NCBI GenBank assembly: GCA_030427905.1
Contig: JAUICL010000007.1
Coordinates: 1 to 64,000, forward strand
Origin: Bacteroidia bacterium
GTDB taxonomy: Bacteria; Bacteroidota; Bacteroidia; Flavobacteriales_D; Cryomorphaceae
DNA: 64,000 bases
Direction of reading: 5' to 3'
Position numbers and translations under genes: made by a program. Position 1 is the stretch's first letter. The number at the start of each line of letters is the position of its first letter. Below the pieces are notes generated by a model. It ran no database searches, was not told the origin of the DNA, and saw only the letters and a list, made by a program, of their open reading frames with translations. Below, in pieces: positions 39,751-56,913 of this stretch.

Positions 39751-40129
39751 GAGAGCTCCGCCTACGTTTAAACTTCGGCGGATAAAAGAGTGAGAATGAG
39801 TGTGAGAGCGCGGCAGAGTGAGAATCAGAGCAAGAGCGAAGAGAGTGAGATGAGCCGCAGGCGAACGACGAAGGTGTCCTGACAACGACGCAGGGAGCTG
39901 AAGTACTGACAACGACGAAGGAGTTCGTCAGTATTCGTCAGTATTCGTTAGCAAATCAGAGTGAGAGCTCCGCCTACGTTAAAACTTCGGCGGATAAAAG
40001 AGTGAGAATCAGAGCGAGAATGAGAGCGAGAGCGAAGAGCAAGAGCGAAGAGCAAGAGCATACAGCAACAGGATAGAGCAACAGGATAGAGCAACAAGGA
40101 GAAGCATACAGCAACAGCCAGAAGAATGA
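39751..40129. repeat. repeat-rich spacer (family C) after tsaD
   Basis: The 401-nt gap 39747-40147 has no gene. A 47-nt sequence beginning GAGAGCTCCGCCTACGTT and ending GATAAAAGAGTGAGAAT occurs at 39751-39797 and again at 39963-40009, with one difference. Its core CCGCC...GTTTAAAC...GGCGG is an imperfect palindrome. The rest is built from short words: GAGAGCGAAGAGCAAGAGC, TATTCGTCAG twice, CAACAGGATAGAG twice, CTGACAACGACG twice. Confidence 0.7.
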
Positions 40130-43786: not shown

Positions 43787-45652
43787 TTAAACTACTTCTT
43801 TAGCTTCTTCTGCTAAATCTCTCTCCACCCGAAGATTACCAATAATAAACTCTTGTCGCTCAGGGGTATTCTTGCCCATGTAAAACTTGAGCAAGTCGCT
43901 GATAGTAGAGTCTTTGGAAATCACAACTGGCTCGAGTCGTATGTCGTCGCCGATGAAATTCTTGAACTCATCAGGAGAGATCTCACCTAGCCCCTTAAAT
44001 CGGGTAATCTCGGGGTTCTTACCAAGCTCTTCAATCGCTTCGATTCGTTCCTGATCTGAGTAGCAATACTTGGTCACCTTCTTGTTTCGCACTCTAAACA
44101 AAGGCGTTTGGAGAATGTAGAGGTGATTGTTTCTGATCAAGTCTGGGAAAAACTGCAGGAAGAAAGTCATCAAGAGCAAGCGAATGTGCATTCCATCCAC
44201 GTCGGCGTCGGTAGCGATTATCACTTTATTGTACCGCAGACCTTCCAGCCCTTCTTCGATGTTGAGCGCGGCCTGAATCAGGTTGAACTCTTCGTTTTCG
44301 TATACAATCTTCTTCGTTAGTCCGAAGCTGTTCAGCGGCTTCCCTTTCAATGAGAATACAGCTTGCGTATTTACATCGCGCGACTTGGTGATCGAGCCCG
44401 ATGCCGAATCTCCCTCGGTGATGAAGATCACGGTCTCGTTAGCTCTATCGTTGTTTCGGGTGTCGTTGTAATGCACACGGCAGTCCCGTAGCTTTTTGTT
44501 GTGGAGATTGGCCTTCTTAGCTCTTTCACGCGCCAACTTTCTAATACCAGCCAGGTCCTTGCGCTCCTTCTCGTTCGACTTGATCTTCTTCTCGATCGCC
44601 TCGGCTACAGCCGGATTCTTGTGAAGGTAGTTGTCGAGCTTCTCCTTGAGAAAGTCTGAGATAAAGGCTCGCATGCTCTTTCCACCTGGCTCAATCTCTG
44701 TTGAACCCAGCTTGGTCTTGGTCTGAGACTCGAAAACCGGCTCAATAACTTTGACGCTCACCGCAGCAATTACCGCCGAACGAATATCAGTTGGTTCGTA
44801 GTTCTTACCGTAAAACTCCTTAACCACACGGGCAAAAGCCTCGCGGAAAGCTCCTTGGTGGGTTCCACCTTGGGTGGTGTGCTGTCCGTTTACGAAGGAG
44901 TAGTACTCTTCACCATAGGAATTGGTGTGGGTGAATGCCACTTCGATATCGTCGCCTTGAAGGTGGACGATTGGGTAAAGTGGATCGTCTGATATTTTCT
45001 CTTCGAGCAGGTCTTTCAGCCCGTTCTTGGAGTGAAAACGCTCGCCATTAAACCAAATGCTCAGACCGGTATTCAGGTAGCAGTAGTTCCAGAGCATGCG
45101 CTCGATGAACTCTGACTTGAACTTGTAGTTCTTAAAAACCGTATTGTCGGGTTTGAAGTATACCAGCGTTCCATTGCGCTCTTCGGTCGATGGGATCTCT
45201 TCTTCAGAGATCAATTCACCACGCTCAAAGATGGCTTTCTTCCCTACTCCTTCTCGGAATGCGGAAATCTCGAAATAGTCTGAAAGGGCGTTAACGGCTT
45301 TGGTACCGACCCCATTCAACCCGACCGATTTCTTAAATGCTTTGCTATCGTACTTGGCTCCGGTGTTGATCTTGCTAACGACATCGACGAGCTTACCGAG
45401 CGGCACTCCACGTCCGAAATCGCGAATGGTAACGCCACCATCCTTGACCTTCACTTCAATTTTCTTCCCGTACCCCATGACATACTCATCGATGGAATTG
45501 TCGAGTACTTCCTTGATCAGGATGTAGACTCCATCATCGTATGCATTTCCATTTCCTAATTTTCCGATATACATCCCGGGACGGAGCCTGATGTGCTCTT
45601 TCCAGTCTAGGGACCGTATATTATCCTCATTGTAAGTTACTGCCTCTGCCAT
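43787..45652 (-). CDS. parE: DNA topoisomerase IV subunit B
   Basis: A 621-residue ATPase subunit. The GHKL domain has [29 protein letters not shown] with the catalytic Glu-Asn, [11 protein letters not shown], and [14 protein letters not shown]. The Toprim domain has [29 protein letters not shown] and [20 protein letters not shown] with the metal Asp residues. It is upstream of parC by 12 nt, one operon. Upstream lies a spacer of 1.3 kb full of repeats. Confidence 0.95.
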
Positions 45653-45795
45653 TCAAAAAGATAGGAAGCCCGCGACCGCAGGCCATTATTCAACCGTCTA
45701 AAATAATTGAAATTGCTCGTCTATCCCGCCCCACTTATTAACATTCATGGGGTTTTTTCCACGGGTTTATGGGGATTCAGGTGGTTTTTAAGTGG

Positions 45796-46112
45796 GTAGC
45801 CCCGATAGGGATCGGGATCTCCGCTGCGCTACGATTGGGTAGTGGGTAGTGAGTATTGGGTATTGAGTAGTGGGTATAGGGTATTGGGTATGGAGTATTG
45901 GGTAGTGGGTAGCCCCGATAGGGATCGGGGTCTCCGCTGCGCTACGATTGGGTAGTGGGTAGTGAGTAGTGGGTATTGAGTAGTGGGTATTGAGTAGTGG
46001 GTAGTGAGTATTGGGTATTGAGTAGTGGGTATAGGGTATTGGGTATGGAGTATTGGGTAGTGGGTAGCCCCGATAGGGATCGGGGTCTCCGCTGCGCTAC
46101 GATTGGGTAGTG
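45796..46112 (+). repeat. three family-B 49-nt hairpin repeats with GGGTA-word spacers
   Basis: Copies at 45796-45844, 45909-45957 and 46064-46112. Each reads GTAGCCCCGATAGGGATCGG, then GGTCTCCGCTGCGCTACGAT and TGGGTAGTG (copy 1 has one A for G). CCCCGAT-aggg-ATCGGGG is a perfect 7-bp stem, and the outer GTAGC/GCTAC can close it. Between copies (45845-45908, 45958-46063, 46113-46138) stand strings of 5-6-nt words such as GGGTAGTGAGTATTGGGTAT. Confidence 0.85.
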
Positions 46113-46277
46113 GGTAGTGGGTATTGAGTATTGGGTAGTCTGCGAAGAACCAAACTGACCCGAAACTGCGGGATAGAGCGCATTCATTTGGCTCCCAACT
46201 TAAGTGCCGAAATTCAATTCACTGAAGTACTTATAGGACGAGTAGAATGAATGGATTAAGAGACAACGTAGTCAGCG

Positions 46278-46971: not shown

Positions 46972-48069
46972 TCACACATTAAATCGGAAGTGCATAATGT
47001 CGCCGTCTTCTACGACATACTCCTTCCCTTCTACTCCGAGTTTACCGGCGTCTTTTACAGCAGCTTCAGAGCCTAGGCTTACGTAATCGTTGTACTTGAT
47101 GACTTCGGCGCGGATAAACCCTTTCTCGAAGTCGGTGTGGATTACTCCGGCAGCCTGAGGAGCTGTAAACCCGTTCTTGATGGTCCAGGCTCGCACTTCT
47201 TTGACTCCGGCTGTGAAGTAGGTTTTGAGTTGGAGAAGCTTGTACGCGTGCTTGATCAATCGGCTTACACCCGATTCTTCCAATCCGAGATCAGAAAGGA
47301 ATTCCTGGCGCTCTTCGTAGGTTTCTAGCTCGGCGATGTCGGCTTCGATAGCGGCACCGATTAAGAGCACTTCAGCGTTTTCATCAGCAACAGATGCTTT
47401 TAGTGCTTCAACATGCGCGTTTCCAGATACCACCGACTCTTCATCGACATTACAAACGTAAAGCACTGGCTTAGCCGTCAAGAGCTGAAGCTCCTTAGCC
47501 AAAGGCGCTTCGGCTTCTGAAAGCTCTACGGTTCTGGCTGACTTTCCAGATTCCAAAGCATCTTTATATCGGGTTAAAAGCTCAACGCTTTTCGCAGCAC
47601 TCTTATCCCCTGATTTCGCAGTCTTCTTGGCTGCATCTAGGCGCTTATCAACCGTCTCCAGATCTTTCAACTGAAGTTCGATATCGATGATCTCCTTATC
47701 TCTAACCGGATCAACACTTCCATCAACGTGGGTCACGTTATCGTCGTCGAAACAGCGGAGTACGTGAATTATCGCATCGGTTTCGCGGATGTTTCCAAGG
47801 AATTTATTCCCAAGACCTTCACCCTTACTCGCTCCTTTTACAAGACCTGCGATATCGACAATCTCGATGGTGGTAGGCACGAGCCGTTCGGGCTTTACCA
47901 AATCGCTTAGCTTATTCAAACGTTCATCTGGAACGGTGATGGTTCCCACGTTTGGTTCAATCGTACAGAACGGAAAGTTTGCCGATTGCGCCTTCGCATT
48001 CGAAAGGCAGTTGAATAGAGTGGACTTACCAACATTTGGAAGCCCTACGATACCACATTTTAAGGCCAT
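46972..48069 (-). CDS. ychF: redox-regulated ATPase YchF
   Basis: A 365-residue Obg-family P-loop protein that prefers ATP. The ATG at 48069 gives the standard start MALKCGIVGLPNVGKSTLF; the in-frame extension to 48135 is not conserved-looking. It has NFPFCTIEPNVGTITVPDER (switch region), VDIAGLVKGASKGEGLGNKF (G3), AKPVLYVCNVDEESV (G4), and the TGS C-terminal domain QLKTYFTAGVKEVRAWTIKN, GFIRAEVIKYNDYVSLGSEA, ending DGDIMHFRFNV. Length is normal. It stands alone after a large spacer. Confidence 0.95.
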   Translation of the reverse strand: MALKCGIVGLPNVGKSTLFNCLSNAKAQSANFPFCTIEPNVGTITVPDERLNKLSDLVKPERLVPTTIEIVDIAGLVKGASKGEGLGNKFLGNIRETDAIIHVLRCFDDDNVTHVDGSVDPVRDKEIIDIELQLKDLETVDKRLDAAKKTAKSGDKSAAKSVELLTRYKDALESGKSARTVELSEAEAPLAKELQLLTAKPVLYVCNVDEESVVSGNAHVEALKASVADENAEVLLIGAAIEADIAELETYEERQEFLSDLGLEESGVSRLIKHAYKLLQLKTYFTAGVKEVRAWTIKNGFTAPQAAGVIHTDFEKGFIRAEVIKYNDYVSLGSEAAVKDAGKLGVEGKEYVVEDGDIMHFRFNV

Positions 48070-48203
48070 GTTCTCAATTTGAGCGCAAAGGTAGCAAGTT
48101 CTTGCAATGAAACATCGCCTAAAACCGTTTTGCAATTGTGAAAAAGTCGGGGCTGATATGGATAAGTAAATCTTTTTTTATGGCCCGATTATTGGCCTTT
48201 TTA

Positions 48204-56019: not shown

Positions 56020-56052
56020 TGGGATTTGGGGGTAGTGAGTAGTGAGTATTGG

Positions 56053-56129
56053 GTAGCCCCGATAGGGATCGGGGTCTCCGCTGCGCTACGATTGGGTAGT
56101 GGGTAGCCCTGAGAGCCTTCGGGGTCTCC
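56053..56129 (+). repeat. family-B repeat, full copy plus truncated copy
   Basis: 56053-56101 is identical in pattern to the copies at 45909 and 46064. Directly after it, 56103-56129 reads GTAGCCCTGAGAGCCTTCGG then GGTCTCC: the stem is CCCTGA/TTCGGG with a G-U pair, and the second half is lost. Confidence 0.75.
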
Positions 56130-56913
56130 TGTCGGACGCCACAGGCTTGCCGTCGGCGCGGCACTTTGTTACGATCAGAAGGCAGGTGACATCAGGTTTA
56201 GGGTTAAGTCTGTTTTTCCATGGGATTGTACTAAGAACAAAGTATTAAGTACTAGGATGCTTGTGGTTTCAGTCAGTGAAAGACGGGTTAGATTTCCTGT
56301 GTTGAGGTTGACCGTTGCTCCGTATTTCCGCCTGAGGCGGAGCTGCGGTATTCCTTCTAAAATCGCCAATCGGTGTTCCTTGTACTGACGCTCCTTGCAG
56401 TCGGTCACCACTGCTTCGCAGTTCTGAAATCGAAACGGGCTTAGCAATAAAAAAGGCACCACAAAGGGCAAAAAGTTCGCAGAGTTGCACAGAGATTCTC
56501 TGTGTTCTTTGAGTGCTCTGTGGTGAGAGAAAGTTATGGTAGCCAGTCAGGAAGTGGCTTCGGAGTTTCCGTAGTGCCTCGATTGGGGGCGAGTAGCGAA
56601 AAGTGAAAAATTGGCTCACTGGCATCGTCTCACTGTCCCTTCACATGTGTAGCTCCAGCGCGCGGAAAGCTTCGGTAAAACGAATCTGGCGGATCTGCAG
56701 TTTTGGACGTTCTGCCCACCAAACAAGACAGTTGGTTAAGATTTTAATTCGGGAATCGCGCCGTGAATACCGAGCAATCAGAGCAATCTGAGAGCTCCCA
56801 CCTTGTCGCAACCGAAAAAAATTCGTTTATTGAAAGGTTGAGAGTTGGCAATGGGACCGTTCCATACCCTGATTCGAGACGCTTACAAACCAATTAACCA
56901 ATCCATAAAAGTG

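Follow-up and report, generated by a model that had tools for sequence, protein, structure and literature searches.

Many bacterial genomes carry palindromic repeats without a known mover, and several described systems come close to the repeat considered here, which is referred to as family B. The tabulated REPs beside enterobacterial RAYTs contain AAGCGnAGCGC with n varying (Nunvar et al., 2010, PMC2817692, Table 1), and single-stranded DNA is the known substrate of TnpA-REP (PMC8266576). The CGTC-tagged REPs have 8-9-bp stems, 4-5-nt loops and a CCA tail in their published description, in which no dedicated transposase was found for them (Di Nocera, De Gregorio and Rocco, 2013, PMC3733652). 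GNA loops, where N is any base, closed by at least two G-C pairs are reported to give extraordinarily stable DNA mini-hairpins, GCGAAGC having a Tm of 78 C (PMC4686876). Intergenic 7-nt repeats are described in Xanthomonas and Nostoc (PMC4692102) and, as TAACTGA, in Beggiatoaceae (PMC4679880). Family B is present in a window of 64,000 nt (contig JAUICL010000007.1, hereafter C7) from a Bacteroidia genome of 3.81 Mb in 13 contigs (GCA_030427905.1). It is a two-part module located between genes, in which a Watson-Crick stem is directly followed by a tail of the form TCTNCGCTNCGCTNCGA, and it is nested in arrays of 7-nt words; tails of the same form stand behind other stems, both in this genome and in other phyla. 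We favour, at a probability of about 0.52, the reading that family B is a small non-autonomous REP-like palindrome which would act as folded single-stranded DNA and would have grown locally by tandem duplication, no dedicated transposase having been found.

The four window copies are all on the plus strand (Table 1) and share the reading GTAGCCCCGATAGGGATCGGG(G/A)TCTCCGCTGCGCTACGATTGGGTAGTGGGTAG in a setting of GGGTA-type heptads. Their core is a CCCCGAT-AGGG-ATCGGGG hairpin followed by the tail TCTCCGCTGCGCTACGA, embedded in arrays of TTGGGTA-like heptads. The first-pass annotation had described a 49-nt hairpin repeat with a perfect 7-bp stem and a 4-nt loop in each of three copies, alternating with GGGTA-type word arrays, and a fourth copy farther on. 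The shared reading was recovered at all four places, heptad arrays do lie between the copies and the fourth copy has a perfect stem and a tail. The unit is not 49 nt, as 34-35 nt (CCCC...CTACG) recur independently of the flanks and the remaining letters are heptad words, and the perfect stem holds for copies 2 and 3 but not for copy 1, which ends ATCGGGA and so has its outermost pair broken. A supposedly truncated fifth copy at 56103 has a degenerate hairpin with a longer and different 3' part, and is really one of four long-tailed variants, the similar forms being at C1:494, C1:6653 and C13:40572.

The three-copy cluster is flanked by two minus-strand genes, with the start of the ParE/GyrB-like gene on its left and the end of ychF on its right. 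Tandem Repeats Finder resolves 45834-46139 into a 155-nt unit present 2.0 times (96% matches) and 45791-46025 into a 113-nt unit present 2.1 times (92% matches), and the left flanks of copies 2 and 3 are identical over 60 nt; copies 1 to 3 are therefore one site enlarged by tandem duplication and not three independent insertions. Another degenerate word array, built of AGAGCG, AGAGCA and AGAGCAACAGGAT words, is located at 39787-40118 of the window.

Table 1. Family B copies, heptad arrays and flanking genes in the window.
Feature	Position	Strand	Remark
Family B copy 1: GTAG, hairpin CCCCGAT/ATCGGGA, tail TCTCCGCTGCGCTACGA	45796..45834	+	outer pair broken
Heptad array between copies 1 and 2	45834..45911	+	TTGGGTA/GTGGGTA/TTGAGTA words
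Family B copy 2: perfect 7-bp stem, AGGG loop, tail	45909..45947	+	
Heptad array between copies 2 and 3	45948..46066	+	within the 155-nt tandem duplication 45834-46139
Family B copy 3: perfect stem, tail	46064..46102	+	
Heptad words 3' of copy 3	46103..46139	+	
Short heptad array left of copy 4	56031..56055	+	
Family B copy 4: perfect stem, tail	56053..56091	+	
Long-tailed variant: GTAGCCCTGAGAGCCTTCGGGGTCTCC, then GTCGGACGCC...GCCGTCGGCGC, in place of the short tail	56103..56165	+	end approximate
Type IIA topoisomerase B subunit (ParE/GyrB-like), left neighbour	43787..45652	-	score far above chance but short of the curated ParE and GyrB cut-offs
YchF, right neighbour	46972..48135	-	TIGR00092 492.7 bits, cut-off 279.2; start codon uncertain

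Across the genome, the 18-nt hairpin has nine exact matches and four more places at 1-3 mismatches, including the window copy at 45800, against two places at ≤3 mismatches for the reversed sequence. Counting the hairpin matches together with two places of the variant CCCCGAAATGGCTTCGGGG and the copy at 56103, the genome has 13 copies, which are spread over nine places, lie on contigs C1, C4, C7 and C13 and use both strands. This is few beside the typical REPs that are said to exceed 100 copies often (PMC2817692). The earlier suggestion of a REP-like element stands in the broad sense of the term, as a short palindrome with multiple intergenic copies on both strands; GTAG adjoins the palindrome in 10 of the 13 copies, and ACAG or GGAA in the other three. 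An outer GTAGC/GCTAC stem, proposed along with it, is not a feature of the family: all five pairs form in six of the eight own short-tail copies that were scored, whereas none of the 16 copies from elsewhere forms all five (two reach four), and its GTA is contributed by the last letters of the heptad word. The tail has 11 exact places in the genome, nine with family B stems and two, on C13, behind a TCCGCC...GGCGGA stem. As a copy counter, TCGGGGTCTCC at one mismatch was rejected, its 37 places being near chance (29 in the reversed control), and copies of this string were counted at exact places and at places judged by eye.

The periodicity of the flanks is pronounced. Own flanks reach an identity at lag 7 of 48% (left) and 50% (right), with z of 10.8 and 11.4 against random windows in 12 copies that include the three duplicated window copies, so that z overstates independence, and every other lag stays at z < 3. 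In other genomes (18 copies), lags 7 and 8 are both prominent (z 3.7 to 6.3), with right-hand lag 2 at up to 3.4. The flanking words vary within the own genome (TTGGGTA, TTGATAA/TTGACAA and TTAGGAA). The longest word that the left and right flanks have in common is longer than in shuffles (p ≤ 0.05) in 6/8 own copies, two of the eight being duplicates of each other, and in 8/16 copies elsewhere; inverted sharing at this level is found in 1/8 and 1/16, respectively. GGGTA-type arrays were found at no fewer than 12 places among the matches listed, of 103 matches (reversed control, 0), and family B lies in five of these listed places, with words and hairpin in the same orientation in 5/5. Such arrays or pieces of them are also present at C1:4073, 22038, 24282 and 346346 and at C5:241357, 570323 and 780049, and among the hairpin places found none is within 2 kb of these seven. 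With 3-G runs every 7 nt, (GGGTATT)n could form G-quadruplexes.

On the complement of the strand on which the hairpin is written here, the tail reads T-CGNAG-CGNAG-CGGAG-A, i.e., tandem d(CGNAG); as a single-stranded oligonucleotide, it corresponds to CGTAGCGCAGCGGAG. Its letters were counted in 131 rows from six genomes, anchored on RGTCTCCGCT only and including some chance rows, as the reversed control gives 35. After leave-one-out filtering (n=96 each), the commonest letter accounts for 48% at N1 and 62% at N2, and the six other tail letters are 94-100% fixed. Similarly, in 25 rows of the Desulfobulbaceae genome G069 picked solely by downstream sequence, N1 is C11 A6 G6 T2 and N2 is G19 C3 T2 A1, with the other tail letters at 23-25/25. 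The variation is uneven between genomes, N1 being T in 13/14 rows of the Bosea draft G067 and N2 being C in 27/29 rows of G061. In 18 aligned long G069 copies, which were picked with the pattern so that their fixed letters are partly a matter of choice, N1 carries 1.71 bits and N2 1.28 bits, and the other columns from -10 to +27 carry at most 0.5 bits. Columns farther out in this element are also variable, up to 1.75 bits, and relaxed constraint, not hypermutation, thus suffices.

At the level of its letters, the tail conforms to GC-GNA-GC with N free, and a variable N between fixed neighbours is as expected for the known GNA-loop DNA mini-hairpin. The enterobacterial AAGCGnAGCGC repeats belong to a family whose single-stranded mode of action is known, and they provide an independent example. 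Folding by nearest-neighbour DNA parameters assigns the isolated tail 0 to -0.4 kcal/mol, i.e., no stability, and the tail fold is consequently a hypothesis drawn from sequence and not a computed result; the folding program appears not to score the non-canonical pairs on which this fold rests. The whole 45-mer as DNA folds only 1.4-1.5 s.d. better than shuffles.

From this arrangement we infer a folded form, an enzyme and a transposition step. The middle tail unit would close as a stable GNA-loop mini-hairpin (GC-GNA-GC), on which the outer units would stack via sheared G-A pairs. Outer pentads can stack in this manner, as in human TGGAA repeats. Mini-hairpin and sheared G-A stacking together would leave N free and require C, G, A and G to stay. 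The resulting double hairpin would be exposed at the replication fork, where it may be recognised and copied by a trans-acting HUH/Y1 enzyme of the RAYT/IS200 kind or by fork template switching, and heptads and hairpin would then be duplicated together in tandem, which raises the local copy number, as at 45834-46139. This reading is favoured by the dispersal of the copies over four contigs and both strands, by the recurrence of the tail form in other phyla, by the free N between fixed letters, by the 7-nt period of the flanks, by the shared orientation of heptads and hairpin and by the mixed orientation to genes. Against this reading, neither a transposition event nor an empty site was seen and no enzyme is linked to the repeat; the poor computed folding of the tail and of the 45-mer, the uneven variation of N and the sparseness of relatives in the phylum also count against it, and duplication alone explains the three window copies.

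Look-alikes are present in unrelated bacteria. For the pattern TCGGGGTCTCCGCTNCGCTNCG, 257 Gb of sequence with equal base frequencies should yield about 0.5 chance matches; the search gave 42 stretches, distributed over 19 titled genomes. Several phyla are represented, the sources including planctomycetes, Acidobacteriia, Methylomirabilis, Zixibacteria, an FCB-group bacterium, Desulfobulbaceae, Bosea and others. At ≤2 mismatches, 17 of the 19 genomes were searched and contain 2-58 places each, the own genome containing 9, and the reversed control gives 0 in 18/18 genomes. Many of the 42 stretches have CCCCGA or a similar arm just upstream together with local word arrays, some do not, and 16 distinct copies passed a strict stem-plus-flank filter. 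Random boundaries and loss of the stem in relatives, which the first-pass annotation had set against its own reading, were not seen in the copies compared elsewhere; stem, same-form tail and boundaries are kept in copies that were found through the tail, so that they are not an independent test. By eye, the inner stem ends covary (CCCT/AGGG, CCCC/GGGG and TCCC/GGGA). In two Acidobacteria-type genomes, ten rows chosen by eye for a visible outer stem have 94.6% of cells paired and 16 cells changed on both sides, against 0 or 1 doubly changed cells in slid controls; 17/500 shuffles reach the number of pairs with double changes and 189/500 the number of pair types. An outer stem is thereby supported as real in those two genomes, with the reservation that the rows were selected for it; the flanks of family B are direct and not inverted.

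Within the own phylum, the pattern is rare: in its strict full form it has no exact match in 394 other genomes, 2-mismatch matches are present in 1/59 relatives, and the tail alone is present in 20/295 other genomes, with 30 matches (6 in the control) of which several look unrelated by context. The Desulfobulbaceae genome G069 contains a dispersed element of ~190 nt with inverted ends (TTGATGGCGTCGTAAAAA ... TTTTTACGAGTTCATCAA) and the CTNCG tail in its middle, which looks like a miniature inverted-repeat element. In five genomes of one genus in the same class, the tail form is enclosed in a similar motif (like CCCGCTTTCGGCTTTATC ... GGATACCGCCTCAATCGGGGCTA), and all three N are variable. Plasmid and phage collections gave no match to the 49-nt query, a weak test for so short a query, and on this weak test a phage or plasmid origin was set aside; IMG/VR has one matching stretch.

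An ordinary GTAG-tagged REP, moved in trans by the RAYT encoded on contig C5 or by a lost one, would have the same general layout of GTAG and perfect palindrome, and the Pseudomonas mendocina REP GTAGCCCGGATGCAATCCGGG is close to it (PMC2817692, Table 1). A PF01797 search of the genome identified two Y1 genes, of which the one on C5 (190 aa) is a true RAYT (NF047646 96.8 bits, cut-off 80) and the one on C3 an IS200-type transposase (NF033573 60.4, cut-off 55). The GTAG beside most own copies and the presence of this RAYT both speak for such a REP, as does GGAGACC, which precedes the family B stem on the other strand and is common to one C5 palindrome, reading GGGAGACC, others there being GGGAGGCC and GGAAGACC. 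However, the RAYT has palindromes of its own: GCAGCATTGCAAATGCTGC (≤3 mismatches) occupies 8 places over ~3 kb (C5:152032-154857) in a textbook REPtron layout, and neither a family B hairpin (≤2 mismatches) nor a tail (≤1) is present in the 20 kb fetched around either Y1 gene. The same palindrome has nine further places elsewhere in the genome at ≤2 mismatches, and the IS200-type gene at C3:167786 has several GCGACCCCTTCAGGGTCG-type hairpins on each side. The tag is also ACAG or GGAA where the flanking word is not GGGTA, so that GTAG looks like the heptad's own end, and it is found in 1/16 copies from other genomes. Among 17 other tail genomes, nine have Y1 matches at 28 places, and eight have none at E ≤ 0.001 (drafts, so that absence is weak), one of these being 5.7 Mb with 25 tail places; several of the Y1-bearing genomes carry GTAG- or GGAG-tagged palindromes of their own. 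Tails flank 0/28 Y1 places on both sides, some loci being cut by contig ends, and 2/28 on one side only, both in a genome with 58 tail places. A RAYT flanked by family B was thus found neither in the own genome nor in the 17 others, and the RAYT link suggested by the first-pass annotation fails as membership on account of the separate REPs at C5, the 20 kb free of family B and the missing two-sided tails. Mobilisation in trans is possible, and the ordinary REP as a whole is rather unlikely.

The hairpin could also be a passive by-product, one word of a heptad array that spreads through slippage, tandem duplication and gene conversion, the hairpin itself not being copied by any dedicated process. 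This accounts for the window cluster, which is a tandem duplication, for the heptad-like words adjoining the own copies and for the left word that recurs right of the tail in the copies counted above (6/8 and 8/16, p ≤ 0.05). Slippage of one array does not, however, explain why the same module is found among different words within the own genome and in other phyla, and elsewhere the tail stands without heptads, in the 190-nt inverted-end element or within outer stems, which makes the by-product quite unlikely. Least probable, and judged very unlikely, is the structured RNA site suggested in the first-pass annotation, taken here as a regulatory site such as a terminator or an mRNA-processing or stability hairpin, although the intergenic hairpin is strong, one copy (on C4) follows the stop codon of a Fur-family gene by about 8 nt and a glycosyltransferase gene has a pair of copies downstream of it. 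Orientation to nearby genes is mixed with no common direction: the C4 copy, C1:383/494 and C13:40572, whose nearest gene has a weak family match only, are sense to the nearest gene, the ParE-YchF spacer (to both neighbours) and C1:196780 are antisense, C1:16121 and C13:35394 lie between divergent genes, and C1:6653 and C7:56053 are assigned to none of these three classes. By eye, the hairpin continues into TCTCCGC or TCTCCCATC without the T-run expected of an intrinsic terminator, Rfam gives nothing in the window at a gathering score besides a tRNA, and the 45-mer folds as RNA only 1.4-1.6 s.d. better than shuffles, the tail having no structure beyond shuffles on either strand. Replication-strand bias was discarded as support. 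GC-skew signs are mixed in the own genome; over 42 loci, skew of the TCTCC strand is >0.02 in 26 and < -0.02 in 12 (sign test p 0.034, loci of the same genome not being independent).

The preferred reading of a folded, REP-like palindrome can be extended, tentatively and with the odds against it, to an unnamed cross-phylum class of tailed palindromes for which d(CGNAG)n tails would be a single-stranded-DNA signature. Family B, the tail of the Desulfobulbaceae element and some long loops of CGTC-type REPs would belong to it, forming with strand-locked 7- or 8-nt arrays one composite system spread by a GNA-mini-hairpin-recognising enzyme other than a dedicated RAYT of a neighbouring gene. One free letter in five with the rest nearly fixed is a legible indication that selection acts on a folded single strand of DNA and not on RNA, and a GNA-tail search pattern links repeats that are filed separately. 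Among the titles and abstract openings listed for mini-hairpins in bacterial repeats, sheared-pair REPs and heptamer repeats in the open-access literature, none describes a GNA tail, which is not proof of absence; the exact string TCGGGGTCTCCGCT has no match in that literature, and six strings led, among the matches listed, to a human-virus paper.

Among the known systems, the CGTC-tagged REPs resemble family B in being short palindromes with an unpaired end motif, in several phyla including Bacteroidetes, and, in the published account, in lacking a flanking transposase gene and in occurring at times inside other repeats (Di Nocera, De Gregorio and Rocco, 2013, PMC3733652). In family B, the absence of an associated transposase holds for Y1 transposases, the class searched. 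Family B differs in its CTNCG-unit tail, in its heptad arrays and in the absence of a CGTC end and of an 8-9-bp stem, since own copies start with GTAG, ACAG or GGAA, the short-tail copies end with CGAT and the stem is at most 7 bp. The two meet in the Bosea draft, where the same tail form is located in an apparent CGTC-type repeat and continues to GGAATGACG in 13 rows. The GTAG-tagged REPs of RAYTs share the GTAG beside a similarly laid-out palindrome and, in the enterobacterial examples tabulated, GCGnAGC loops with n varying (Nunvar et al., 2010, PMC2817692), but no flanked RAYT was found for family B in the genomes searched, its GTAG is lost outside GGGTA contexts and its tail is on the side opposite GTAG. 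The d(GCGNAGC) mini-hairpins of Hirao, Yoshizawa and co-workers, as presented in PMC4686876, have the same CGNAG core with N free and the rest fixed; they are described there as synthetic or in vitro structures, whereas the tail here is a repeated genomic one known from sequence. The heptameric repeats of Xanthomonas, Nostoc and Beggiatoaceae are likewise intergenic and 7 nt long, whereas the words of family B arrays, compared with those descriptions (PMC4692102; PMC4679880), vary both among the units of an array and among genomes, and a tailed hairpin is enclosed by them. The aspects that appear new are the GNA-pentad tail, its cross-phylum occurrence and the nesting in arrays of 7- or 8-nt words.
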